A stretch of 41,058 bases of DNA from a virus. Under the pieces are notes generated by a model. It was not told the DNA's origin. It searched no databases and saw only the letters and a program-made list of their open reading frames with translations. The position numbers and the translations under genes are program-made. The stretch covers positions 1 to 41,058 of IMG/VR virus record IMGVR_UViG_3300028809_000035. The stretch is one strand, 5' to 3'. This document shows, piece by piece, positions 6,289-40,536 of this stretch (positions within the stretch are counted from its first letter, which is position 1; each line of letters opens with the position of its first letter).

Positions 6289-6606
6289 GTTCTCTGCCCT
6301 GACGAATGGGGGGACCAATTGAACGCTCAAGATTTTTTTTCCGCAACAGAGCCGTCGAACTTCTGCATCCGCGTGACGCAATAGTTGCGGAGGAACTTGT
6401 TGCGGCAAGACCTTCCAACGACCACATCGGCCATTGGTGCGGCAACGAAAAACGACCTGCCTTCGGTCCGTAACCTAGGTTGCGGAAAGTAAGTTGTTCG
6501 CAAAATCCTCTCTCACGACAGGCCCATTTTTTCGAGCGTTGACAGGGCCTGCAGCGAAGTTGCCCACTCGCGTTCCCGCTTCATCCTGTACCTCATGAGG
6601 ACGCGA
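6289..6606. promoter_or_regulatory. Divergent early control region with iterated GTTGCGG sites
   Basis: About 318 bases without a gene separate the leftward Cro-like gene from the rightward nuclease gene. GTTGCGG occurs at 6384-6390, 6399-6405 and 6479-6485 and inverted at 6341-6347, with a one-mismatch copy at 6436-6442. Dyads are visible: CGCAA-TAG-TTGCG (6377-6389), TTGC-G-GCAA (6400-6408) and TTGCG-N14-CGCAA (6480-6503). A TTGACA hexamer at 6539-6544 has no convincing -10 box. The region must hold both early promoters and is the best place for operators or a replication origin. Confidence 0.75.
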
Positions 6607-7542
6607 ATGACGAACGAAAAAGCAGCGAGGCCGTCGGTAATTTTTTCGCCAAGTTCGTCACCTCCAGGACCACGATCCTGGCCTCTCGGGTTCGTGCACG
6701 ACCTGCCGAACCACGACTACCACCGCGGCCCTGGCCTGTCGAACAGCGGACTCAAGCTGCTGCGGAAATCGCCCTGGCACTACCACTCGTTGAACGGCAT
6801 CGAGCTGCCGGCGTGGATGCTCGATGAGGTCGACGGCGAGGGCAGCGCGGCGATGTTCGCGGGCACCCTCTGCCACTGCGCCACGTTGGAACCGTTCGCG
6901 TTCGACGACCGCTACGCCATCGGCCCGGCGTTGAACAAGAACTCGAAGGAGTGGAAAGCGTTCGTCGAGGCCGCGAAGCCCCGGCAGGTCATCAGCCGGA
7001 AGCAGTACGAAGTCGCGCGGGCCCAGGCCACGTCGTTGCGCAACCTCGCGGACGTGCGCGAGGTGCTCGACGACGGCGAGTTCGAAGTCTCGGGCTACTG
7101 GCTGGACCAGGCGACCGGCGTGCTGTGCCGGTGCCGGCCGGACTGCATGAACCGCGGGTTCGGCATCAGCTCGCACGGCGTGTCGTCGCCGGCCTCGATG
7201 CTGCTCGACGTGAAGACCACGCAGAACGCGAGCAGCACCACCGAGCTTCGCCGCACGATTGCGAACTTCGGCTACCACCATCAGGCGGACTGGTACAAGC
7301 GCGGCGTCGAGACCATCACGCGCGCCCCGGTGTGCGGGTTCATCTTCGCGTTCGTCGAGTCGACGTACCCGTTCGCGGCCCGCGTGGTCGAGCTAGACGA
7401 ACTGTCCATGCGCATCGCGCGGGAGCAGAACGACGAGGCCCTGCAGATCTACGCGCATTGCGAGCGCATGGGCGAGTGGCCGAGCTACCCGCCGGAGCTG
7501 GAGACCGTCTCGCTGCCGCGCTGGGCAGGCGGTGAAGCATGA
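6607..7542 (+). CDS. RecE/exonuclease VIII-like PD-(D/E)XK nuclease
   Basis: A 311-residue nuclease, probably the 5'-3' exonuclease of the phage recombination system. Motifs in order are an early YHRGPGLSNSGLK segment, GTLCHCATLEP (His 90), Glu 160, the RPD motif near 177-179, the catalytic LLDVKTT (Asp 201, Lys 203) and QADWY (226-230), the layout of RecE/DUF3799 nucleases. I prefer ATG 6607 over 6595 because GAGGA sits about seven bases before it. It is the first rightward gene. The next large gene could be its annealing partner. Confidence 0.8.
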   Translation: MTNEKAARPSVIFSPSSSPPGPRSWPLGFVHDLPNHDYHRGPGLSNSGLKLLRKSPWHYHSLNGIELPAWMLDEVDGEGSAAMFAGTLCHCATLEPFAFDDRYAIGPALNKNSKEWKAFVEAAKPRQVISRKQYEVARAQATSLRNLADVREVLDDGEFEVSGYWLDQATGVLCRCRPDCMNRGFGISSHGVSSPASMLLDVKTTQNASSTTELRRTIANFGYHHQADWYKRGVETITRAPVCGFIFAFVESTYPFAARVVELDELSMRIAREQNDEALQIYAHCERMGEWPSYPPELETVSLPRWAGGEA

Positions 7543-9312: not shown

Positions 9313-9874
9313 ACTCAAGACCCCCACCACCGTGCAGCTCGTCAGCGTCACGAACCGCAGCGAGCACCACGGCGAGGAGCTGACCCCGGCAGTGTCCTTC
9401 GGCCTGAAGTGGGAGGGCAGCGCCAGCATTCTCGACACGCTGTGCCCCGAGGTGCGGCCCGTGCTGATCGTGCCGGCGCTGGAGTCGCTCGCGCTGAAGA
9501 CCGTGTGCCAGGGCTGGACCGTGCTGGTCGAGCACGGCATCGACGAGAACGCGCCGATCCGCCTCGGCGCCTGCAAGGTCGACAAGTTCAAGCTCACGCC
9601 GAAGAACGACGGGATGATCGAACTGAAGATGCGCGTGGCGTCGTCGGACCTCGACGCGATGCGCCTCGGCCTCCTCGGCATGAAGGTCGGACAGGAGGTG
9701 GTCGTGAAGATGACGGCGCCGAAGGGCGCGACGATGACCACCACCGATGCCGAGGCGAAGGCGCTGGCGAAGCAGAAGGATCAGGAGGCCGCAGGGCAGA
9801 CCCGCATCGACCAGGCCGACGCCGCGGGCCGCGAGTTCGCGCGCTCGGTGAAGGCGAACGCCGCGCGGGCCTGA
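9305..9874 (+). CDS. Hypothetical protein of the recombination module, 189 aa
   Basis: Residues 1-135 look like a compact beta-rich domain with alternating hydrophobic strands; residues 140-189 are a charged Ala/Lys/Gln-rich helical tail. The protein may be a DNA-binding or annealing accessory judging by position, but no motif shows this. It overlaps the 85-aa gene by eight bases and is followed two bases later by the GTG of the methyltransferase gene. Confidence 0.65.
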   Translation: MFELKTPTTVQLVSVTNRSEHHGEELTPAVSFGLKWEGSASILDTLCPEVRPVLIVPALESLALKTVCQGWTVLVEHGIDENAPIRLGACKVDKFKLTPKNDGMIELKMRVASSDLDAMRLGLLGMKVGQEVVVKMTAPKGATMTTTDAEAKALAKQKDQEAAGQTRIDQADAAGREFARSVKANAARA

Positions 9875-9876
9875 GC

Positions 9877-10614
9877 GTGAATGAGCTGGCTTTGTTCGCG
9901 GGCATTGGTGGCGGCCTGCTCGCAGGCCACTGGCTCGGCTGGCGAGTCGTCTGCGCTGTCGAGGTTGACCCCTACGCCGCAAGCGTACTTGTCGCCCGAC
10001 AGAACGACGGACTTCTCCCGCCCTTCCCGGTTTGGGATGACGTTCGCACCTTTGACGGACGACCTTGGCGCGGCCGTGTTGACGTGGTGTCTGGCGGCTT
10101 CCCTTGCCAGGACATCAGCAAGATCGGAAGCGGCGCCGGCCTCGACGGCGCCCGCTCCGGCCTCTGGCGCGAGTTCGCGCGTGTCGTGGGCGAGGTTCGA
10201 CCCGGCTTCGTCTTCGTGGAGAACAGCCCAGCGCTCCTTGTTCGCGGACTCGGACGACTCCTCGCTGACTTGGCCCGCCTCGGGTATCGCTGCCGGTGGC
10301 GAGTGTTGGGAGCTGCCGATGTCGGCGCCCCGCACGAGCGCAACCGGATCTGGATCGTCGCGGACCTCGAAGGCGGGGCCGCGCTTCCCGACGCCGATCG
10401 CGCGGGACTACCGCAGCGGGAAGGCATCGGCCGCGACGATGGCGAAGAACTGCCGGCCGCTGTCGGAGCACGTTGGTGGGCTGTTGAACCCGACGTGGGT
10501 CGAGTGGCTGATGGGTTTCCCTCCCGGGTGGAGCGGATTCGAGCCCTTGGAAACGGACAAGTACCCGCCTGCGCTGTCGAAGCGTGGCGGTCGTTGACAC
10601 AATCGAGAGCATGA
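9877..10614 (+). CDS. DNA cytosine-5 methyltransferase
   Basis: A 245-residue C5 methyltransferase. Motif I, the SAM site, is LFAGIGGG (6-13); motif IV with the catalytic Cys 77 is GGFPCQDIS; motif VI is VENSP (114-118); motif VIII is APHERNRIWIVA (151-162); and motifs IX/X are represented by RVERIRALGNGQVPA near the C-terminus. The target recognition region is unusually short (about 165-215). The start is GTG, two bases after the upstream stop. The enzyme would methylate C in phage DNA against restriction. The whole gene is overlapped by a second frame starting four bases later. Confidence 0.85.
   Translation: MNELALFAGIGGGLLAGHWLGWRVVCAVEVDPYAASVLVARQNDGLLPPFPVWDDVRTFDGRPWRGRVDVVSGGFPCQDISKIGSGAGLDGARSGLWREFARVVGEVRPGFVFVENSPALLVRGLGRLLADLARLGYRCRWRVLGAADVGAPHERNRIWIVADLEGGAALPDADRAGLPQREGIGRDDGEELPAAVGARWWAVEPDVGRVADGFPSRVERIRALGNGQVPACAVEAWRSLTQSRA
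9881..10597 (+). CDS. Overlapping frame product, methyltransferase-associated protein (possible dual coding)
   Basis: A 238-residue frame lies inside the methyltransferase gene, one base out of phase. It starts with ATG four bases after the other gene's GTG and stays open to almost the same end. Its sequence is not random: it has FDPASSSWRTAQ...TWPASG near the middle, then FPTPIARDYRSGKAS and, near the end, LNPTWVEWLMGFPPGW. I recognise these motifs from a protein family found beside phage cytosine methyltransferases. The same bases encode canonical methyltransferase motifs in the other frame. Function unknown; it may be a genuine overprinted gene. Confidence 0.5.
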   Translation: MSWLCSRALVAACSQATGSAGESSALSRLTPTPQAYLSPDRTTDFSRPSRFGMTFAPLTDDLGAAVLTWCLAASLARTSARSEAAPASTAPAPASGASSRVSWARFDPASSSWRTAQRSLFADSDDSSLTWPASGIAAGGECWELPMSAPRTSATGSGSSRTSKAGPRFPTPIARDYRSGKASAATMAKNCRPLSEHVGGLLNPTWVEWLMGFPPGWSGFEPLETDKYPPALSKRGGR

Positions 10615-11171: not shown

Positions 11172-11193
11172 ATGCCATTCAGACCCCAACGAG

Positions 11194-11219
11194 GCCCGGT
11201 TCGCCGGGCTTTTTCTTTT
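11194..11219 (+). terminator. Rho-independent terminator closing the first rightward block
   Basis: The stem GCCCGG/CCGGGC (11194-11199 and 11204-11209) encloses a TTCG tetraloop and is followed at once by TTTTTCTTTT. This is a strong intrinsic terminator, 22 bases after the stop of the preceding gene. It separates the recombination/methyltransferase genes from the small-gene cassette downstream. Confidence 0.9.
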
Positions 11220-13169: not shown

Positions 13170-13337
13170 GTCGCCCGCTATATGAATGGCGGGGAGAGCG
13201 CCGCCGAATTTGCGTCAAGCCACAAAATTCAGGAACGAAGTAACAGTCCCAGGCGGCTTATATTTTCGGACCCCTTCGCCTTCGCAGTTGTTGCCTCATA
13301 TATGATGGCCACGGCTCCACTTACATCTGTCCCGACC
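13170..13337 (+). promoter_or_regulatory. Integrase upstream region
   Basis: The 168 bases between terminator and integrase are AT-richer than their surroundings and hold two -10-like boxes, TATATT (13259-13264) and TATGAT (13301-13306), neither with a good -35 at the usual distance. The integrase frame stays open through here, but the extra residues do not look like part of the enzyme. The integrase promoter is probably here. Confidence 0.4.
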
Positions 13338-15050
13338 ATGAAGCTCCAACCCTTCGTCATCAGCTACGCCCGGTACTCCTCCACCGCTCAACGCGAGGGC
13401 ACGAGCCTGGAGCGGCAGGCCGAGTATGCACAGCGGTGGGCCGACGCCCACGGCATGACCCTGAACACGACCCTGCGCGATCAGGGCATCTCGGCGTTCA
13501 AGGGCAAGCACGCCGACAAGGGCGAGCTAGGCGGCTTCCTGCGCGATGTCGAGGACGGGAAGGTGCCCCGCGGCTCGGTGCTGGTCGTCGAGGGTCTGGA
13601 CCGCCTGTCGCGTGAGAAGGCGTTGAAGGCCATGGGCCAGTTCGCCGCCATCATCGACAAGGGCATCACGATCGTGACCGCGAAGGACGGCATGACGTAC
13701 AACGAGCAGACGATCCGCGCGAACCCCGGGAACCTGTTCATGTCCCTCGGCGTGATGATCCGCGCGAACGAGGAGAGCGAGACAAAGGCAGACCGGGGCC
13801 GCAGCGCCATCCGTCTGCGCGCGAAGGCGTGGATCGCGGGCGACCGGACCCTGCGCACGATCAAGGGCGGCTTCCCTCCGGCGTGGCTGCGCCGCAAGGG
13901 CGACACCTTCGAACTGCACCCGGACCACGCGCACGCGACCCGCACGGCGATCGACCTGTACCTCGCCGGGGCCGGCATGGTCGGCGTGGCCGCAGCGCTG
14001 ACCGAGCGCGGCCTGATGCTCACTCCCCGCGGCTCGCACGTCGCCCAGGTCGAACGCCTGCTGCGCAACCAGGCGTTGATCGGCGAGCACGTCGTCGAGG
14101 TGCGCGAGCCCGACAAGCCGGTCGAGCGCTACGTGCTCGAAGGCTACTACCCCCCGCTGCTGAAGGTCGCGCAGTGGCACGAGCTGCAGGACGCGATCAA
14201 GGCCCGCGCGCTGCCGACCTTCAGCACCAAAGGCACGATCCCGCACGTTCTGACCGGCTTCGGCGCGACCGTCTGCGGCTACTGCGGCTGCGCCGTCATC
14301 GGGCAGGTGCTCACGCGCCGGCCGGGCACGCAGATCCACGATGAGGCCGGCCGGCTGCGCGACCCGTACCGGCGCCTGCGCTGCGCGCACGTCAGCCGCA
14401 GCGACGTGACCTGTCTCGTCGGCGGGCACTCGGTGACGGCGGCGCCCTTCGAGCGCGCGGTGATGGAGTTCTGCTCGGACCTGATGAACCTGCGCGGCCT
14501 GCACGGCGGGAGCGGTGACGCGGCGGCGCGTGTCGCACTCGACGCCGCGAAGGAGCGGGCCGCGAAGCTCACGCAGCAATTGGACAAGCTCACCGACCTG
14601 ATCCTGGAGGCCGACGACAAGCGCACGGTGGCGACCTTTGCGAAGCGCGCGGCGGCGCTCGAAGCCGACAAGGCGGTCGCGGTCGAGGCCGTCGACGCCG
14701 CGCAGCGCGCCCTCGCCCGCGTGAGCCGCTCGGACCTCAACAGCGTCGAGGCGAAGTTCAGGAAGCTCACGAAGGGTGTCATCGCGCAGGAGGTCGAGGC
14801 CCGCCAGCAGGCGCGCCAGCTCATCGCCGATAACTTCGAGCAGATCGTGCTGTTCTCGAAGGGCATCCGCCCGAGCGAAACGCCGGCCGGCGTGGCCCAC
14901 CTCGTCCTTCGGGCCCGCGGTGGCGTCGAGCGCATCCTTCAGATCGACGCCGAGGGAAAGTGGGACGCAATGTCGGAAACCTACCTGCCTTCCGGCAAAG
15001 CTGCTGCGAAGCAGGCACCGAAGCGAGCCCGAAAGACCACTGCAGCCTGA
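13338..15050 (+). CDS. Large serine recombinase (phage integrase)
   Basis: A 570-residue large serine integrase. The resolvase catalytic domain (about 1-155) starts with ISYARYSST, where Ser 14 is the probable nucleophile, and contains GLDRLSR (86-92). A recombinase DNA-binding domain follows (about 165-290), then a zinc ribbon with Cys 313, 316, 349 and 359. A coiled coil (about 405-500) is of the kind that controls integration versus excision. I chose ATG 13338 because YARYSS normally lies within the first 15 residues. It makes the phage temperate. No excisionase-like directionality factor is obvious nearby. Confidence 0.9.
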   Translation: MKLQPFVISYARYSSTAQREGTSLERQAEYAQRWADAHGMTLNTTLRDQGISAFKGKHADKGELGGFLRDVEDGKVPRGSVLVVEGLDRLSREKALKAMGQFAAIIDKGITIVTAKDGMTYNEQTIRANPGNLFMSLGVMIRANEESETKADRGRSAIRLRAKAWIAGDRTLRTIKGGFPPAWLRRKGDTFELHPDHAHATRTAIDLYLAGAGMVGVAAALTERGLMLTPRGSHVAQVERLLRNQALIGEHVVEVREPDKPVERYVLEGYYPPLLKVAQWHELQDAIKARALPTFSTKGTIPHVLTGFGATVCGYCGCAVIGQVLTRRPGTQIHDEAGRLRDPYRRLRCAHVSRSDVTCLVGGHSVTAAPFERAVMEFCSDLMNLRGLHGGSGDAAARVALDAAKERAAKLTQQLDKLTDLILEADDKRTVATFAKRAAALEADKAVAVEAVDAAQRALARVSRSDLNSVEAKFRKLTKGVIAQEVEARQQARQLIADNFEQIVLFSKGIRPSETPAGVAHLVLRARGGVERILQIDAEGKWDAMSETYLPSGKAAAKQAPKRARKTTAA

Positions 15051-23745: not shown

Positions 23746-24279
23746 TCAGGCCACCGTGACGGGCTTCGCCACGGTTCCCGGTTGCGTGAGGTCAGTGGGC
23801 GACGTGAGCGGCGTGCCGCCGAGCACCCAATCGAGGGAAGGCGCGAGCGGCGAACCGCCGACAATCCACTTGCCCGCGAAGACGGGAGCGATCTGCTCGG
23901 CCGTGGGCAGGTACTCGGCTTCGACGCGCACGCGCCACCACCAGAGCCGATGCACCGGCAGCAGTTCGGCGCGCGGGTCGCTCATGAAGCGCACCGCAAT
24001 GGCCGCGGTGTTCACCCCGAGGCGGCTCGCCACGAGGCCGGGCAGTTTCATGTTGACCCAGTCGTCCCAGGCGTTCTCGTTCACCCAGGTCAGCCACCCG
24101 GCATAGTCCGGCTGCTCGATCATGAAGGTGAGCGCGATGCGCGTGGGCAGCATGCGGTGCGTGCGCCGCTGCCGCGAGTTGCCCGCCTCCATGGGCGTGC
24201 GCACCAGGCCCGCGCTCATGTCCTGGCTGTGCCCCTCAATGCGCGACGGGCACGGGAAACTGGCCGGATAGTCGATCAT
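23746..24279 (-). CDS. Tail tip-associated protein, 177 aa
   Basis: A basic N-terminal half with MLPTRIALTFMIEQPDYAGW and a Trp-rich RLWWWRVRVEAEYLP near the middle mark it as a structural protein found next to the tip protein in similar phages. Its precise place in the virion is unknown. ATG 24279 forms a TGATG overlap with the tip gene stop, and GTG 24282 is an alternative. It ends 11 bases before the fibre gene. Confidence 0.6.
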   Translation of the reverse strand: MIDYPASFPCPSRIEGHSQDMSAGLVRTPMEAGNSRQRRTHRMLPTRIALTFMIEQPDYAGWLTWVNENAWDDWVNMKLPGLVASRLGVNTAAIAVRFMSDPRAELLPVHRLWWWRVRVEAEYLPTAEQIAPVFAGKWIVGGSPLAPSLDWVLGGTPLTSPTDLTQPGTVAKPVTVA

Positions 24280-26741
24280 CACGCGCCTCCTTGATGTGGC
24301 GCGGCCCGGTCCCACACGGACGGCGCGTAGTTGATCGCCTCGATGGTCACGGTCGTGCCGCTCGGGGCCATGCGCTGCACGGTCCAGTCGGTGACCTCGG
24401 TGCCCACGACGCCGAACGCGAGGTGCGTCGGCTCGCTCGGCGATCGCGAGTCGCGGATGGCGAACGGTGCAGCCCCGGGCAGGACGAGGATGTCTGCGCG
24501 CGCTCCCTGCGTGACACCGACTACGGTGTGCGGCTGGCCCCTCGGGTCGCGCAGCAGCACCGCGTGCGGCCCGCCCGTCCAGTCCATCGGCACGGAGAGC
24601 TGCAGCGCGAGGCCCTCGGCGCGCACGACCCACGCAGCGGCGCCCCACCGCATCGTGCGCGACTGGATGCCGATGCGCTGGCCCGGCAGGCAATTGAGCC
24701 CTTCCAGCTCCGTCGCGAAGGTGGCCGTGGTGCGCTGGAGCTGGCGGCGGTCCATGATGAGGTTCGCATGCTGCTCCGCGACCTCGCGCGAGGTGCAGCC
24801 GAACAGCGTCATGGACTGGTAGTCGGGCGCGTTGACTGGCTCGAAGACGGCATCGGCCGAGAAGGTGCGCGGGTCGCGGAACTCCACGCGGGCGCCGGCA
24901 GGGGTGCCCGCACGGTCCCACTGGTGCGTGACCTGCAGCGAGCCGGCCACCGTGTTCACGTCGGTGAACAACTGCACCCGCACCGGCTGCGGCGCGTCCT
25001 CGATGACGGACATGCGCGAGCCCACGGGCAGCGGCGCCGCGCTCACGGTCTGCACCGACAGGGTGAGCGCCTCCCACACCGTAGACGGCTGATCGAACAC
25101 CGCGTTGAACCCGTTGTGGTACGCCCACTTGGCGCGCAGCGTGGCGAGCAGCGGCAGGTCCAGCTCCTCGTTGTTGACGGGGCGGTTGCCACCGTAGGCC
25201 GCGGTGAGGATGTCGACGAATGCGTCGGCCGGGTTCACCGTTGCGGCGGTCGCGCCGACCCCGAGCGGGGCCAGCTTGCGCGTGACGCGGAAGCGGATGC
25301 TCGACGCCGCATCGCTGGCGATGCCGTTCGATGCGCGCAGAGTCACCGCGGCCATCGTCACGTCACCGTACACGGGCAGCACGATCAGCTCGTCCAGTTC
25401 GAACTTGAGCCCGGTCCAGTGAACGCGGTCGAGCGTGCCGGCGCGCCCGTCGCTGTCGGTCGAGCGCGAGGCGCGCACCCTGTAGCGGCCGAGCGGGACC
25501 ACCCGCTTGCGCGTGAAGCGCAGCGCCGTGTTCGTCTTGCCGAGGAAGCTCTCGTCATAACCGACCGTCGGGCCGATGTCTGCACCGCTGTCGTCGATCG
25601 GCGTGTACTCCACGCGCACCGTGATCGCGCGGTCGCCGAGGTTCCCGCCGCTGTCCATGATCGCCAGCCCGCCGATGAACACGAGGTCCAGCTCGATCGA
25701 GCGGCCGGCCTGCCCCGGCTTGCAGGTCTCGAAGGGGCCGACCCACTTCGTGATGCCGATCGTGGTGCTCCCCGGCGGCGGGATGAGCGAGCCGGCCGGC
25801 ACCGGGTCGCCGGGGACGTACGGCGTCGAGACGAAGGTGTTGAGCTGCCAGATTTCCGGGTCGACGTTGAGCTGGTACATCACGGCCTGCACTGTGGTGC
25901 CGAACGGCGGGTCGTCGGGCAGGATGGCGAGCTGCGTGGTCAAGTCCCAGGCGCCCGTCAGATCGTAGGCCGGCGGCGACGGTGGGAAGCCGTTGTGGGC
26001 CTCCTGCGCCGTCAGCGCCCAATACCACGTCGAAGGCGTCTGGTTGCTCGTCTCGTTCGGTGCGAGCAGCTCTTGGTCGGCCACGTCGACCGAGGTGGAG
26101 ACGTTCTCGCGCACGCCGGTCGCCTCTTGAATCACTCCGAACGTCGACGCGTGCGCGGCCGGGCTGAAGATCTCGTAGCGCACCACCTCGGGCGGAAGCG
26201 CGGACGAGTCCGAGTCGCCCACCAGCATCGCGTGCACGTCGTAGTCGCCCTGGCCGATGCACAGCAGCGCCTTCAGGTACTGCTCGTTGTTCTCGTACTC
26301 GGTGTACGGCTGCGCCGCATAGTCGGGCAGCGTGAGCACCGAGCCGTAGGCGACCGGGATTGGTTCGCCGAGGCGCGCGGTGTTCTTCGGCGGCGCGATG
26401 CCGTAGACCTGGGACGGGCTCGGGGTGTTGCCCGCCGAGGGCCGCTTAGGGCCGAAGATCAGGTTCAGCGCGTAGGAGATGGCCGCGGCGATCAGCGCCT
26501 GGGCGATGTAGACCAGAGCCCACTGCCCGGGGCGGTGGACCACGAGGATCTGGTCTCCCACCTCGACGCGGTAGCCCTCGGCCTCGATCGCCTTCCCGTG
26601 CACGTAGACGAACTGCTGGAGCGATCCGCGCACGGGCTCGTGCTCGGCGAGCCACGCGCCCAGCTCGGTGCCCTCCTCGATGTCGTGGATGCGGCGCCGC
26701 GTCGTGTCCAGCGGGTTGTAGAGAACGATCAGGTGCGCCAT
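24279..26741 (-). CDS. Tail tip protein, lambda J-like central fibre
   Basis: An 820-residue tip protein. The N-terminus (1-100) resembles the beta-grasp/hydrophobic part seen in phage tip proteins, including VYIAQALIAAAISYALNLIFG (in parts), a segment likely buried or membrane-contacting. A SPSQVYGIAPPKNTARLGEPIPVAYG motif (in parts) marks the J-type family. Long beta domains follow, including fibronectin-like regions. It should cap the tail and touch the cell. It lies between the NlpC/P60-like peptidase gene and the tip-associated gene, the normal order. Confidence 0.8.
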   Translation of the reverse strand: MAHLIVLYNPLDTTRRRIHDIEEGTELGAWLAEHEPVRGSLQQFVYVHGKAIEAEGYRVEVGDQILVVHRPGQWALVYIAQALIAAAISYALNLIFGPKRPSAGNTPSPSQVYGIAPPKNTARLGEPIPVAYGSVLTLPDYAAQPYTEYENNEQYLKALLCIGQGDYDVHAMLVGDSDSSALPPEVVRYEIFSPAAHASTFGVIQEATGVRENVSTSVDVADQELLAPNETSNQTPSTWYWALTAQEAHNGFPPSPPAYDLTGAWDLTTQLAILPDDPPFGTTVQAVMYQLNVDPEIWQLNTFVSTPYVPGDPVPAGSLIPPPGSTTIGITKWVGPFETCKPGQAGRSIELDLVFIGGLAIMDSGGNLGDRAITVRVEYTPIDDSGADIGPTVGYDESFLGKTNTALRFTRKRVVPLGRYRVRASRSTDSDGRAGTLDRVHWTGLKFELDELIVLPVYGDVTMAAVTLRASNGIASDAASSIRFRVTRKLAPLGVGATAATVNPADAFVDILTAAYGGNRPVNNEELDLPLLATLRAKWAYHNGFNAVFDQPSTVWEALTLSVQTVSAAPLPVGSRMSVIEDAPQPVRVQLFTDVNTVAGSLQVTHQWDRAGTPAGARVEFRDPRTFSADAVFEPVNAPDYQSMTLFGCTSREVAEQHANLIMDRRQLQRTTATFATELEGLNCLPGQRIGIQSRTMRWGAAAWVVRAEGLALQLSVPMDWTGGPHAVLLRDPRGQPHTVVGVTQGARADILVLPGAAPFAIRDSRSPSEPTHLAFGVVGTEVTDWTVQRMAPSGTTVTIEAINYAPSVWDRAAPHQGGA

Positions 26742-27606: not shown

Positions 27607-29664
27607 TCAGAACGCCGCAGCGCTGCCGCGGCTCAGACCCCACGCGCGCTCGGCCGCGGTGGCGAAGTCGTTGCCCCCGCGCATCACGTCAGCGGCGAGC
27701 GATGCCTTGATCTCGTCGATCGTGATCGTGAGCCCCCCGTTCGTCTGTTGCGTGCTGACCGACACGGGCGCGTTGTTGTTGATCGTCACGTTCAGCGCGG
27801 GCTGTTGCGCGACGATCCCGAGGTCGCCCGAGGCCGTGCGCTGCAGCGGCATGATGGCCTCGGGGCCGGCCTCGCCAGCGAGCGCCATGGGGAAGGTGGT
27901 CGGCCGCGTGAGCACGCCGCCCTTGGCGAAGGGGACGACGGCGCCGGAGTCGAAGGCGAGGCCGAGACGCCCCGCAGCGCCACCACCACCGCCGGATGCA
28001 CCTCCGAACGCGTTGGTCAGTGCGTCGATGATGTACTTCTTAGCCCACAGCTTGAGCAGCTCCGCGATGATGGACTGGACCATGCGCTTGAACAGATCTT
28101 CGACATCGGCGGTGCCGCTGGCGAGGTTGTCGAAGAAGTTTTCGAACCCCTGCGTCAGCACGTCCACCTCTGATGTTTGCTTGGCGATGGTCTCGCCTGC
28201 CACCGCGGTGGTGGTCGCCACTTCGAGCTGCGAGCGGGCATAGGCGCGCTGCGCTTCGGTGGCGTTCGCGTACACGTCCGAGGTTTCGTCGAGGAGGTCA
28301 ACGAGGTACTGCTGCCGGGCCCCCTCCTCCTCGATCCTGTCGAGCCGCTCCTCGGCGGCGCGGTCGACTTCGAGGATCGCCTTCTCGTAGGCCGAGAGCT
28401 TCGAGGTGCGGGCCACGAGCGCCTCGTCCGCGCGCTTCTGCGCGTCCTCGGCAATGCGTGCCTGCTCGGCGAGCTGCTTCCACGCTTCGTCCTCGACCTT
28501 CTGGTGCTCGCGGATTGCCTTCGTCCGCGCGGCCAGCGCCTTCGCGGCGGCGGCGTCGGCCTCGCGCTGTTTCTTGGCGAGCGCCTCGGCAGCGGCTGCA
28601 GCCTTGAGCGCCGCGCTCGCAGGCCCGTCGCCCGCGGTGTCCTGCGGCGCGCCGGCCTTCGTCGATTCCCTGAAGCTCTTGTAGTCGGCTTCGAGCTTCT
28701 TGAGTTTTTCGTTCGTCGTGCGGTCGAGCGCGTTGATGTCCTCGACCAGCGCCGTGAAGATGGTGCCGGCCTGACCAGGGTTCGCCGCTGCCGCAGCAAC
28801 TGCACCGATGACCAGACCGAAGGCCTTGAGGGTCGCGCCCGCCTTGAGCGCCACGCCCGTGAGGTTCACGAGTACCTCGCCGATCGCGTCTCCGGTTTCG
28901 ACGAAGCCGTCGCCCGTGCTGGCCGAGTCGACGAAGCTCTGGCTGATGGCCTGCAGCGCCGGAAGCAGGCCGGCGGTGATCTGCTTCATCACGCCGCCCA
29001 TCACGCCTTCGAGGCGCGACAGGTTGTCGTTGAACGCCTCAGCGGCCTTGAGCGTGCCGCCACTGAGAACGACGCCGTAGCGCTCGGCCTCGTCCGTCAA
29101 TTCCTTGAGGCCCGCGCTGCCACCGTTCAGGAGCGGAATCAGATCCTTACCGGCCTTGCCGAAAATCTCGATCGCAAGCGCGGTCTTCTCGATGCCGTCG
29201 GGCATCTTGGCGAACTCGTCTGCGATCTTGTCGAGCGCCTGCACCGGGCTGTCGCCGGACTGCACGCCGATCGCGCGCAGCGCCTTGTGCGCGCCGGTCG
29301 TGCCGGTTTCGAGGTCCGCCATCGAGACCGCGAGCTTGCCGATCGACTTGTCGAGGTCTTCGGCCGAGAGCCCCGAGAGGTCCGCAGCGTAGCGCAGCTT
29401 CTGCAGGTCTTCGGCCGCGATGCCCACCTTCGACACGCTCTTGGACAGCTCGTCCATCGCATCGATGTTCGACTTGATCGACGAGAGGACGGTGCCCACG
29501 GTGAAGCCTGCGGCGAGCGCGCCGGCTACCTTTTTGATCGAGGCCGCGGCGGCGTCGAAGCGCTTTTCCGCGTCCTGGGTGGACTTGGCGATGGCGTTCA
29601 GGTCGCGGGCCGCTTGCGCGCCGTCGACCGTCAGCTTGTAGATCCGTTCGATGGTGTCGGCCAC
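27607..29664 (-). CDS. Tape measure protein
   Basis: A 685-residue tape measure protein. Residues 1-150 are an assembly domain; hydrophobic helices lie around 270-310; a long Ala/Lys/Glu coiled coil covers about 340-470; and the C-terminal part has Gly-rich AFGGASGGGGGAAG and AKGGVLTRPTTFP, which is characteristic of the family. Tail length scales with this protein; by the usual rule of about 0.15 nm per residue the tail would be near 100 nm. It is preceded by chaperone genes and followed by tip genes, as usual. Confidence 0.9.
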   Translation of the reverse strand: MADTIERIYKLTVDGAQAARDLNAIAKSTQDAEKRFDAAAASIKKVAGALAAGFTVGTVLSSIKSNIDAMDELSKSVSKVGIAAEDLQKLRYAADLSGLSAEDLDKSIGKLAVSMADLETGTTGAHKALRAIGVQSGDSPVQALDKIADEFAKMPDGIEKTALAIEIFGKAGKDLIPLLNGGSAGLKELTDEAERYGVVLSGGTLKAAEAFNDNLSRLEGVMGGVMKQITAGLLPALQAISQSFVDSASTGDGFVETGDAIGEVLVNLTGVALKAGATLKAFGLVIGAVAAAAANPGQAGTIFTALVEDINALDRTTNEKLKKLEADYKSFRESTKAGAPQDTAGDGPASAALKAAAAAEALAKKQREADAAAAKALAARTKAIREHQKVEDEAWKQLAEQARIAEDAQKRADEALVARTSKLSAYEKAILEVDRAAEERLDRIEEEGARQQYLVDLLDETSDVYANATEAQRAYARSQLEVATTTAVAGETIAKQTSEVDVLTQGFENFFDNLASGTADVEDLFKRMVQSIIAELLKLWAKKYIIDALTNAFGGASGGGGGAAGRLGLAFDSGAVVPFAKGGVLTRPTTFPMALAGEAGPEAIMPLQRTASGDLGIVAQQPALNVTINNNAPVSVSTQQTNGGLTITIDEIKASLAADVMRGGNDFATAAERAWGLSRGSAAAF

Positions 29665-36447: not shown

Positions 36448-38559
36448 TCACCACGTCGTGCCCGTGACCTGCTGGACGGCGCCGGCACGCGTGATGCCGA
36501 AGCTGGCGGGCACGACCAGCCGGATGCCGGTCTGCCACGTCTGCCACAGCGAGAGGGCGACCGAGCCTGCGATCGAGGCGCCATTGCCGCCAGCGACCGG
36601 GATGCCGCCATCGGGGACGACCTGCCCCGCGGTGCCGAGCGCGCCACCCAGGGGTGAGGCGCCGGCCTGGGTCGGGGCCGTGCCGTCAGCGTTCGCCATC
36701 GTGATGGTGGCCTGATCGCTCGTGCTGTAGTCGAAGCCGTCGATGGCGCTGGCGAACTTCTCCGCGGCCACGCCGATCATCGTGTTCGCGGCGATGAACT
36801 CCGAGCCGACGATCTGGAAGCCGAGCGCTTCGCTGTCACCGTTCGGGAAGATGAACTGCCCGAGGGCGTTCGTCATCGTGCGCAGGGTGAACAGCTTCGA
36901 CTGCGGGACCAGAATCACCGGCTTCGAGCCCACGCCCGCGGCCGTGAACGCCGAGTTGATCGCATCGAGGTCGGCGTGGAACGCGTTGTACCCGCCGCCG
37001 GCCGCGCCCGGGATGGCGACCACTCCGTTCAGCAGGCCGGCCGGGCGCACGCCCACCACCTCGGCACTCGCGTCGAGCATCGAGGTGTCCAGCAGGTTCG
37101 AGAGGAACTGCCGGAGCATCTCGCGCATGACCGCGACCGCGGCCGGGTCGCTCGCGCGCTCCAGCTCCTTCGTGATCGGGATGATGCCGGCGAGCTTGTA
37201 CTTCCAGAGCCGCTTGCCGGTGATGGCGCCCTTCACCACCGGGATGGTGCCGGCCTCGCCGACCCACGCGGTGGCGCCCGTGCTCACGCCGATGTTGGTC
37301 TGCGGGATGAGGATCGACTGCGCACCGCCGAAGGTCATGGACTGACCCTGGCGGGCCAGCGTCGGCCAGATCGAGTTCGGTCCCGCGGCGGCGTCCAGCA
37401 GGGCCTTCGCCTCGCTGCGCACCAGCTCCGCGGCCCACCCGACGGTCGTGGTGTCGGCCGAGCCGACCAGCGAGCGCGCGACGGCGATCACCTCGCGCTC
37501 CTGCGCGAACAGCTCGGAGGCGACTTGGTCCACGCCGCAGCCGCGCGAACGCGCGATGTGGGTGGCGAGGGTCATTTGCGCGAGCAGCGTGCCGGCAGGC
37601 CGCTGCTCGGCCTCGCCACGACGGGCGATGACGGCCGGCGCGGCGACGGTGGCGACGGCGCGCGAGACGGCGGCCTGGGCAGCGGGCGCGGCGGCGGCGG
37701 CCGGCGCAGCGGCGGCGCGGCGCGTGGCGGCGGTTTCCGCAGCGCGCAGCGTGGTGAGGCGCGCGAACAGCGAGTCGGCCTCGGCGGTGGCGCGCTGGAC
37801 GGCCTGGAGGTTCGTGTCCCCGGCGTCGGATTCGAGCGCGGTGATGGCCGTGGCCTGGGTGGCGAGCGCGGCCTCGTGTGCCGCCTGGGCGGCGGCGATC
37901 ATTTCAGCGAGTGTCATGGTGGTGGTCCGAGCATTCGCACCGGCGACAGCCGTGGTGGTGCGGGCGATGGATGCCGGCGGGGGCACGGGGCGCGACAGCG
38001 CGGCCACCTCGGCGTCGTTGAACCCGAGCGAGCGCGCGACGGCGACCGCTTGAGGATTCGCGGGGAACTGTGTGAGGGTCACCTCGGTGACCTTGCCTTT
38101 GCGGTAGCGGTTGCCGCGCTGCGGCTTGCCGTCCGGGCCCGTGCGGGTGATCGGCTCGATGTCCTTCGGCGCGATGTCGAAGTTCACCGAGGAGGCGATC
38201 GGGAACCCGCCGGCGTGGAGCGCGCGCACGAGGTCGGCCATGCGCGAGGCGCCCGGGGGCAGCAGGCGCAGAGAGGCGAAGGTCTCGCCGATGCCGCGCT
38301 CGATGTTGACCCACTCGCCGACGGCGGCGTCGAGCTGCTTCACATGGTCGGCCACGGCCGGCACCTTCGGCGGGAACTCCAGCCCGGCCTGCACCACGAC
38401 ATCGCCGTAGTAGTCGACGGCCTCGGAGCTGATGCGGAAACGGATGAGGTCGCTGGAGGTGGTGGCACCACCCTGCGCGCCCGTCGAGGGGACGGGAAGC
38501 CCGCCGCGCTTCTCAACGCGGATCAGGTCAGGGGCGTCAAGTCCGGCCACGGTCGGCAT
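36448..38559 (-). CDS. Fused HK97-type prohead protease and major capsid protein
   Basis: A 703-residue fusion. Residues 1-190 are a prohead protease: His 72 in VADHVKQL and the Ser pair 123-124 in IASSVNFDI, a Ser/His protease that trims the scaffold. Residues 195-315 are an Ala/Gln-rich helical linker resembling a delta scaffold domain. Residues 320-703 are an HK97-fold capsid, with WVGEAGTIPVVKGAITGKRL, then ELERASDPA and LLNGVVAIPGA. Separate proteins are presumably released by cleavage. AAGG abuts ATG 38559 with no spacing; GTG 38550 has better spacing and is an alternative start. A promoter lies upstream and a terminator downstream. Confidence 0.85.
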   Translation of the reverse strand: MPTVAGLDAPDLIRVEKRGGLPVPSTGAQGGATTSSDLIRFRISSEAVDYYGDVVVQAGLEFPPKVPAVADHVKQLDAAVGEWVNIERGIGETFASLRLLPPGASRMADLVRALHAGGFPIASSVNFDIAPKDIEPITRTGPDGKPQRGNRYRKGKVTEVTLTQFPANPQAVAVARSLGFNDAEVAALSRPVPPPASIARTTTAVAGANARTTTMTLAEMIAAAQAAHEAALATQATAITALESDAGDTNLQAVQRATAEADSLFARLTTLRAAETAATRRAAAAPAAAAAPAAQAAVSRAVATVAAPAVIARRGEAEQRPAGTLLAQMTLATHIARSRGCGVDQVASELFAQEREVIAVARSLVGSADTTTVGWAAELVRSEAKALLDAAAGPNSIWPTLARQGQSMTFGGAQSILIPQTNIGVSTGATAWVGEAGTIPVVKGAITGKRLWKYKLAGIIPITKELERASDPAAVAVMREMLRQFLSNLLDTSMLDASAEVVGVRPAGLLNGVVAIPGAAGGGYNAFHADLDAINSAFTAAGVGSKPVILVPQSKLFTLRTMTNALGQFIFPNGDSEALGFQIVGSEFIAANTMIGVAAEKFASAIDGFDYSTSDQATITMANADGTAPTQAGASPLGGALGTAGQVVPDGGIPVAGGNGASIAGSVALSLWQTWQTGIRLVVPASFGITRAGAVQQVTGTTW

Positions 38560-38781: not shown

Positions 38782-40536
38782 TCAGGCGATCATCGAGCCT
38801 ACGTTGACCAGCGTCGGCGCGCGCCGAGCGCCGACCGCCATCGTCAGCGCCACGAGCCCGTCGATCCGCCCGGTCGCCTTGCGCTTAGAGAAGATCCGCG
38901 ACTGGTGCAGGTCCGTCTCGCACACGGCGCTCGCCGCCGCCCATGTGAGGCACGGGTTGTCGTCGATCTCAATCTCGCCCCGCATGAGGGCGCCCTCCAA
39001 CTCGTTGATCGACTGCGGCATCCACAGCGCCGAGGTGCGGGGCTTGACGAAGGTCTGCGGGTGTTCGGTGAGCGAGAGCATCACACCGATGTCCTCCAGC
39101 TCGCGCTTGAGGTACGACATGCGGTAGCGGTCGAACACCAGCTCGGCCACGTCGAACACCTCGGCCAGCTCGGCGATGCGCGCGGCCACCGGCCCGTACT
39201 CCAGCGTCGAGCCGGGCACGGCATGGATGTGGCCCTGCCGGACCCACAGCATGTAGTCAACGCCATCGCGCTCGCCGCGCGCACGCATCGTGTCGCCCGG
39301 GGTGAAGAACTCCACCGCGGCGAACAGGTGGCCGTCAATCTCGACGACCATGGCGAGCGCCGTGAGGTCGGTCGTCGTCGACAGGTCGACCGCCAGCGTG
39401 ACCCGCGCGCCCGCGAACCGCGTGACGAACGGCGTCTCCGGCTTGCGCACGCACGCGCGCCACGCATCGCCGCTGATCCACGGCGAGGAGGCGTCGACCC
39501 ACTCGCAGAAGTGCAGCCGGCGCACGACCGACTCCTTGCCGGGCATCTGCCGCGCCTCCAGTACCTGATCTCGCAGGTAGTCCTCGCGGATGGACACGCC
39601 CAGGTTAGGGTTCGTCTTCGGCCAGCACCGCTCGTCGTGCAGCGGATCCTCGCCGCGGTCCAGCGCGCACACGTAGGAGAAGAACCGGTCGTCCTCCAGC
39701 ATGCGCTCGGCGATTTTGATCGCGCGGTCGTGATACCTCCAGCACACCGACTGCCGGTCCACGCCCGCGTTCGTAATCATGAACATGAGCGGCGAGCGCC
39801 GGCCCTTGAAGCCCGCGCGCATCATCTCGACCACGGTGTCGTCCTTGTGCTCGTGCATCTCGTCGATCAGCCCACAGTGGGGCCGCGGGCCGCTCTGCTT
39901 ATCGTCGGCCGCGATAGGCTTGAAGAACGAGTCGCGGAAGACCATATTCCACGGCTGCACGCCACCGATCAGCCGCACCCGCTTCGACAGCGCGGGCGAC
40001 TGCTTCACCATCGCCACCGCGTCACGGAACAGGACCATGGCTTGATCCTTCTTCGAGGCGGCGGCGTACACCTCGCTGCGCGCCTCGCCGTCGGCCACCA
40101 TCATCAGGAGGCCGATGCCGGCAGCAAGCGGCGACTTGCCCGAGCCCTTGCCCGTCTCGATGTAGCAGACCCGGAAGCGCCGCGAGCCGTCGGCCGCGCG
40201 CCAGCCGAACAGCGAGCCGACGATGAACACCTCCCACGGTGAGAGGTGGAAGGGCATGCCTTCGAACTCGCCCGCGTTCAGGCGCAGCACCTCGGGGAAG
40301 AAATCCATCGCGCGCTGCGCGAGCCCCACGTCGAACACGTAGCCGCGGGCCGCAGCGTGCTCGCGGTCGTCGAGGTGGCGCTTGCAGGACGCGCGCACAT
40401 GCGGCCCGGCCATGATCTTCCCGGAGACGACGTGCTGCGCGTAGACGCTCGTCGGGTCGCGGTAGCGGCGCGCCTTCGGTGCCGGTGCTGTCGCCTTCGC
40501 GGCTTCAGCGCGACGAAGGGTTGAGGAAGCGGTCAA
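38782..40536 (-). CDS. terL: Terminase large subunit
   Basis: A 584-residue packaging motor. The ATPase domain has Walker A GKGSGKS (129-135) and Walker B CGLIDE with Asp 226 and Glu 227. The nuclease domain starts near 380 with LAVDLSTTTD (Asp 384), then ELVFDRYR (Asp 469) and a late GRIDG Asp, the usual metal-binding set. It drives DNA into the prohead and cuts the concatemer. The first 50 residues are basic and variable. It overlaps the small subunit gene by 32 bases. Confidence 0.9.
   Translation of the reverse strand: MTASSTLRRAEAAKATAPAPKARRYRDPTSVYAQHVVSGKIMAGPHVRASCKRHLDDREHAAARGYVFDVGLAQRAMDFFPEVLRLNAGEFEGMPFHLSPWEVFIVGSLFGWRAADGSRRFRVCYIETGKGSGKSPLAAGIGLLMMVADGEARSEVYAAASKKDQAMVLFRDAVAMVKQSPALSKRVRLIGGVQPWNMVFRDSFFKPIAADDKQSGPRPHCGLIDEMHEHKDDTVVEMMRAGFKGRRSPLMFMITNAGVDRQSVCWRYHDRAIKIAERMLEDDRFFSYVCALDRGEDPLHDERCWPKTNPNLGVSIREDYLRDQVLEARQMPGKESVVRRLHFCEWVDASSPWISGDAWRACVRKPETPFVTRFAGARVTLAVDLSTTTDLTALAMVVEIDGHLFAAVEFFTPGDTMRARGERDGVDYMLWVRQGHIHAVPGSTLEYGPVAARIAELAEVFDVAELVFDRYRMSYLKRELEDIGVMLSLTEHPQTFVKPRTSALWMPQSINELEGALMRGEIEIDDNPCLTWAAASAVCETDLHQSRIFSKRKATGRIDGLVALTMAVGARRAPTLVNVGSMIA

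Follow-up and report, generated by a model that had tools for sequence, protein, structure and literature searches.

In the window, by which we mean the whole stretch of 41,058 bases analyzed here (the GC-rich viral record IMGVR_UViG_3300028809_000035), one piece of DNA at 9877–10614 is open in two frames of the same strand. The overlap of the two frames and the selection acting on both are established at the sequence level. We consider it very probable that the two frames together encode a single two-chain C5-cytosine methyltransferase, in which a beta chain, contributing motif IX and probably target recognition, is nested almost wholly within the gene of the alpha chain. The translation of both chains, their binding, the need for both, and their target-recognition and biological roles are what we infer from the comparisons below. 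The features of the locus are as follows.

9877..10614, + strand: alpha, the C5-cytosine methyltransferase frame with motifs I–VIII and X, 245 aa (PF00145, phrog_363, profile alignment, AlphaFold)
9881..10597, + strand: f2 (beta), +1 frame, 238 aa, proposed source of motif IX and probably of target recognition (phrog_1008, phrog_26627, synonymous tests)
9877..9883, + strand: double start GTGaATG, with the alpha GTG at 9877 and the f2 ATG at 9881 (conservation of RTGnRTG)
10093..10110, + strand: alpha motif IV, GGFPCQ, with the catalytic cysteine (synonymous sites free)
10211..10285, + strand: f2 block SSWRTAQ...TWPASG, overlying alpha motifs VI–VII (constraint in both frames)
10363..10476, + strand: variable region from alpha motif VIII to f2 motif IX, probable target-recognition segment (length variation, exchange, disorder, GC3)
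10484..10531, + strand: f2 LNPTWVEWLMGFPPGW, assigned to C5-methyltransferase motif IX (profile-profile alignment to LTPRECARLQGFPD)
10540..10566, + strand: alpha motif X, ALGNGQVPA (aligned to canonical motif X; ordered in the AlphaFold model)

A preliminary description of this DNA had proposed that GTG 9877 and ATG 9881 open two frames overlapping for 717 bases, and this layout was confirmed, with frames of 245 and 238 codons, 97% of alpha covered, and each of the quoted motifs present in the frame given for it. The upstream gene stops at TGA 9872–9874 and the alpha GTG begins 2 nt later. The upstream TGA, the alpha GTG and the f2 ATG all lie inside 12 bases (9872–9881), which suggests translational coupling. 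The window copy of the double start, GTGAATGAG, stands directly behind the upstream stop codon and has no strong Shine-Dalgarno site. Two starts of the form RTGnRTG, offset by 4 nt, were found in most of about 120 close loci (ATGAATGAGC in 43, GTGAATGAGC in 17 and ATGAATGAGT in 15); among these the commonest double start is ATGAATGAG, and a GGAGG-like site often precedes it. The codon of alpha Asn2 is nearly always AAT (entropy 0.14 vs 0.96 expected). In a distant clade, the f2 start lies further in and the first ~70 residues are absent.

The identification of the first frame as a C5 methyltransferase was borne out by database searches, in which alpha matched DNA_methylase (PF00145, 7e-31) and phrog_363 (8e-65). 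It carries the C5-methyltransferase motifs I, IV (PCQ), VI (ENx), VIII and X. The canonical order in these enzymes is motifs I–VIII, a target-recognition region, motif IX (LTPRECARLQGFPD) and motif X (GNAVP). When alpha was profile-aligned to eight canonical enzymes, E. coli Dcm among them (1.5e-46), the alignment ran through motif VIII and resumed at motif X. Motif IX was not found in the alpha frame in this alignment, and its place is in the +1 frame. The AlphaFold model of alpha has a pTM of 0.77 and a core pLDDT of ~95, and its best PDB matches are M.HhaI and M.HaeIII. Residues 175–215, which overlie the variable region and f2 motif IX, are disordered in the model.

An open second frame might come from mistranslation of a methyltransferase gene, its conservation being a by-product of alpha and of GC-rich codon usage. 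Spurious long ORFs are indeed frequent in the window; its other long ORFs lack the kind of evidence for coding that alpha and f2 have, and length by itself is unconvincing. Stops in the f2 frame were counted in 64 non-redundant loci from viral contigs, which were retrieved by the methyltransferase protein only and were thus not selected for f2. From alpha codon 3 to motif X, 4 f2 stops were found, against 220 expected from within-gene synonymous codon shuffling, while the unused third frame of the same 64 loci held 728 stops against 631 expected. Two of the 4 f2 stops sit 3' of f2 motif IX. Loci with a stopped second frame beside an intact methyltransferase, which the preliminary description had named as evidence against overprinting, were limited to 2 of the 64, with one true internal stop each. 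In these two (L116:1841-2755 and L141:2001-2745) alpha is intact and f2 is conserved on either side of its internal stop, so that recent loss, a sequencing error or readthrough may account for it. In a prophage of E. coli PCP07014 (L326:2501-3262), alpha and f2 are each interrupted by one internal stop, and the two stops almost coincide in position; both frames were therefore lost together.

Synonymous variation was then mapped in 105 aligned alpha genes, with the expectation taken from the codon usage of each gene. At 97 of 146 conserved degenerate alpha codons the variation was below expected (z<-3), and at none was it above. The ratio of observed to expected synonymous entropy was 0.29 over alpha 200–222, where f2 reads LNPTWVEWLMGFP, 0.64 over alpha 104–135 (SSWRTAQ...TWPASG in f2), and ~1 at the invariant catalytic GFPCQ (alpha residues 74–78). 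Alpha Val114 is encoded by GTG in 84/84 genes (f2 Trp113), and alpha Ala133 by GCC in 94/94 (f2 Pro132). Conversely, the synonymous ratio of f2 was 0.24–0.27 under alpha motifs I–IV, 0.87 in the variable region and 0.59 at motif IX. The dominant frame is thus alpha over the first 80–100 codons and at motif X, and f2 over the variable region and at motif IX; the stretch between these parts is constrained in both frames. Given these reciprocal constraint maps, two proteins divide the DNA.

Scored with a profile made from the f2 of 25 distant loci, the f2 of the window reached 171 bits, while 1000 synonymous shuffles of alpha gave a mean of 56 bits (sd 10.7, maximum 98). With a shuffle background of 56 bits, part of the resemblance of f2 to its relatives is a by-product of alpha conservation, as the mistranslation reading would have it, but most is not. 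The proposal that two motifs from the same bases exceed chance therefore holds, and overprinting kept by selection on both frames is strongly supported by the stop counts, the constraint maps, the conserved register and the shuffles. The synonymous-constraint test across homologous loci, which had been put forward as a check, places both frames under purifying selection. Mistranslation fails these synonymous tests, since alpha synonymous sites are frozen at f2 motifs and free elsewhere, and it does not agree with rearranged loci (below) that put the f2 domain in one chain with alpha or with motif X. We regard it as extremely improbable, and as an artefact it is ruled out, on the letters of the DNA, by synonymous shuffling and codon-constraint maps.

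The translation of each frame was also searched separately, as the preliminary description had advised, and while alpha hit PF00145 and phrog_363, f2 hit phrog_1008 (2e-19), phrog_26627 (4e-11) and other PHROG families. No Pfam match and no catalytic motif were found for f2. All of the aligned f2 proteins (111/111) matched phrog_1008, a family labelled DNA methyltransferase. In profile-profile alignment, with no position given, f2 LNPTWVEWLMGFPPGW fell on canonical motif IX (E 0.019 at full length, 5.7e-4 for the C-terminal part); the alignment spans 29 columns, and 0 of 200 column permutations scored as well. Judged by this alignment, f2 LNPTWVEWLMGFP is the motif IX that is missing from alpha, and the frames therefore look like two chains of one enzyme.

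We further examined 55 C5-methyltransferase ORFs from 27 bacterial and archaeal genomes, scoring motif IX by regular expression. An in-frame motif IX was present in 0/29 ORFs with f2 and in 15/26 without f2 (Fisher 6.5e-7); the 27 genomes were picked for holding an f2 locus, so that the proportions are not a census, though the exclusion is still informative. The remaining 11 of the 26 ORFs without f2 also had no match to the motif IX expression.

Conceivably f2 is a genuine protein with a job of its own, for instance as a regulator or an anti-restriction factor, and no subunit of the methyltransferase. Accessory roles are frequent among phage genes, the N-terminal half of f2 has no counterpart in canonical enzymes, and f2 lacks a structural match: its model found none in the PDB with Foldseek, and its profile found no relative among PDB sequences. 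Modelled alone in AlphaFold, f2 has low confidence (pTM 0.28), with the motif IX segment forming a helix at a pLDDT of ~80. Such a poor solo model could fit an obligate partner, yet it is neither positive evidence nor proof of one. The separate-job reading is set against the similarity of f2 to motif IX, the mutual exclusion of f2 and in-frame motif IX, natural fusions in canonical order, and the finding that among the loci examined none has f2 without alpha. We consider it very unlikely, an independent accessory protein being disfavoured by the motif IX match, the exclusion and the fusions. The idea of two cooperating proteins, raised in the preliminary description, stands as the best-supported model, with the refinement that f2 is better seen as the second chain of the same enzyme than as an unrelated accessory.

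The +1 register was present in 254 of 261 alpha-bearing loci, the other seven comprising six Dcm genes of the canonical kind and a single copy with a frameshift (L225). In this set 80 loci were fetched by alpha alone, all of them with f2, and most others were fetched through f2. The GC content of loci with the +1 register is ~44–67%. Several loci are rearranged. The f2 ORF runs on into motif X in seven (L004, L007, L156, L157, L212, L243 and L247), and in L037 a single chain consists of alpha motifs I–VIII followed by the f2 domain. In mycobacteriophage Nyxis (L163:1420-1953 and 1928-2515), gp78 holds motifs I–VIII, and gp77, in the +1 frame, holds an f2-type domain and motif X; both are annotated as DNA methyltransferase. 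Combined, these rearranged loci give the canonical order of motifs I–VIII, recognition region, IX and X. Many mycobacteriophage records have two adjacent methylase genes at the same place as Nyxis gp78 and gp77. A locus from Verrucomicrobiales (L271, 1120-2037 and 1191-1856, both on the - strand) has PF00145 positions 1–167 in one frame and 175–297 in the +1 frame, which includes a canonical-looking motif IX (LPSEYERLQGFP); it is either an independent split or a frameshifted gene. As to the origin of the overlap, we infer one of two routes: either a single-chain gene acquired two compensating frameshifts around its recognition and IX segment, or a Nyxis-like split came first and both frames were then extended. 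The rearranged loci show that such shifts occur.

The fusion in L037 bears on a further possibility, programmed ribosomal frameshifting that would lead from alpha motif VIII to the C-terminal domain of f2 and give one chain with motifs I–VIII, the target-recognition domain and motif IX. L037 holds such a fusion in one frame, the position of f2 and its +1 frame are right for such a shift, and f2 lacks the first ~70 residues in distant loci. However, f2 has its own conserved start, 4 nt past that of alpha, and an open N-terminal half, and motif X remains in the alpha frame, so that the frameshifted product would be without motif X. We regard frameshifting as very unlikely and favour two separately started chains.

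The variable region, read in the f2 frame as FPTPIARDYRSGKAS at 10385–10429, ranges from 29 to 126 aa across 62 loci and is swapped between relatives whose flanking DNA is ~90% identical. In one pair (L046 and L084) both flanks are 93% identical, with 90 vs 31 aa between them. Read in the f2 frame, the region contains (W/F)PTPxAxD modules, and in the window its GC3 is higher in that frame (0.93) than in the alpha frame (0.68). Both frames run through the region; codon bias, constraint and disorder point to f2 as the frame that reads it. A target-recognition role for the f2 segment before motif IX can reasonably be proposed. In three loci (L004:3001-4437, L007 and L212), f2 ORFs have several PTP-type modules and large insertions between motifs IX and X; these modules are perhaps multiple recognition units.

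In the enzyme that we propose, alpha would supply the catalytic, AdoMet-binding domain with motifs I–VIII and the C-terminal motif X, and beta would supply motif IX (LNPTWVEWLMGFP) together with the preceding target-recognition region and its modules. The chains would be started 4 nt apart at GTGaATG, and the pair would form an active enzyme for the methylation of phage DNA, probably as a defence from host restriction. It is possible, though we put it forward only tentatively, that this is a whole phage-borne class found in phages and prophages of many bacterial phyla, with one C5-methyltransferase fold split over two frames, the overlap kept by selection, cassette exchange altering the recognition region of beta and leaving alpha intact, and the paired starts balancing the chains.

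A comparable arrangement is found in M.EcoHK31I, where the gene of the large chain contains, in an alternative frame, the coding sequence of a small chain of ~176 aa; the two systems are alike in having the small chain in an overlapping frame, and they differ in that here only 4 nt separate the starts, the overlap is almost total and f2 is longer (238 aa). M.EcoHK31I (YGGCCR) is described as a two-polypeptide C5 methyltransferase, with motifs I–VIII and X and a predicted target-recognition domain on the large chain and motif IX on the small chain (PMC3404938, citing Lee 1995). Compared with that description, alpha likewise has motifs I–VIII and X without IX, and motif IX is on a second, smaller polypeptide, whereas the target-recognition domain described for the large chain of M.EcoHK31I differs from the variable region here, which is apparently read in the small-chain frame. 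M.AquI is a natural split whose break lies between motif VIII and the target-recognition region and precedes the second half of the variable region (PMC3404938). It differs from the window, where alpha, rather than the second chain, carries motif X and the overlap is almost total; a form of the M.AquI type, whose second chain joins an f2-type domain to motif X, is found in L156, L004 and Nyxis gp78/gp77. The two-chain principle is therefore already known from M.EcoHK31I (1995), and what is new is that the overlap is almost total, that the double start RTGnRTG is conserved, that the arrangement extends across phages and that it is misannotated. PHROG matches the two frames with phrog_363 and phrog_1008, both labelled DNA methyltransferase, and is silent on the two frames forming one gene. 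In the literature we found no paper describing the phage alpha/f2 overlap.

Of the two frames, each record inspected annotates only one. It is alpha in Salmonella phage S9-5, Leptospira plasmid p2 and others, and f2 in Pseudomonas phage phPA-G (hypothetical protein) and in Stenotrophomonas phage SOVA965, where it is labelled DNA-cytosine methyltransferase. Long same-strand overlaps with both frames clearly selected are rare in annotated prokaryotic genomes because pipelines retain one frame only, and the alpha/f2 pair recurs in hundreds of loci. We predict that the annotation of many phage "DNA cytosine methyltransferases" omits the second subunit, and that such proteins could prove inactive if expressed alone. 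The interest of the locus lies in its scale, in an overlap that is almost total and in how cleanly constraint is divided; it would offer a two-chain enzyme made by nature, whose recognition cassettes can be exchanged, and a clean setting in which to study the sharing of constraint between two frames.

The record has early genes on the + strand and structural genes on the - strand, and the following genes were recognized outside the methyltransferase locus.

6595-7542, + strand: exonuclease VIII
13182-15050, + strand: serine-type integrase
24279-26741, - strand: tail protein
27607-29664, - strand: tape measure protein
36448-38559, - strand: major head protein
38782-40536, - strand: terminase large subunit

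Given the integrase, exonuclease VIII, terminase, head and tail genes, the source of the record is probably a temperate tailed phage. A terminator-like hairpin with a T-rich tail is located at 11191-11212 (+ strand), 3' of the methyltransferase gene cluster.
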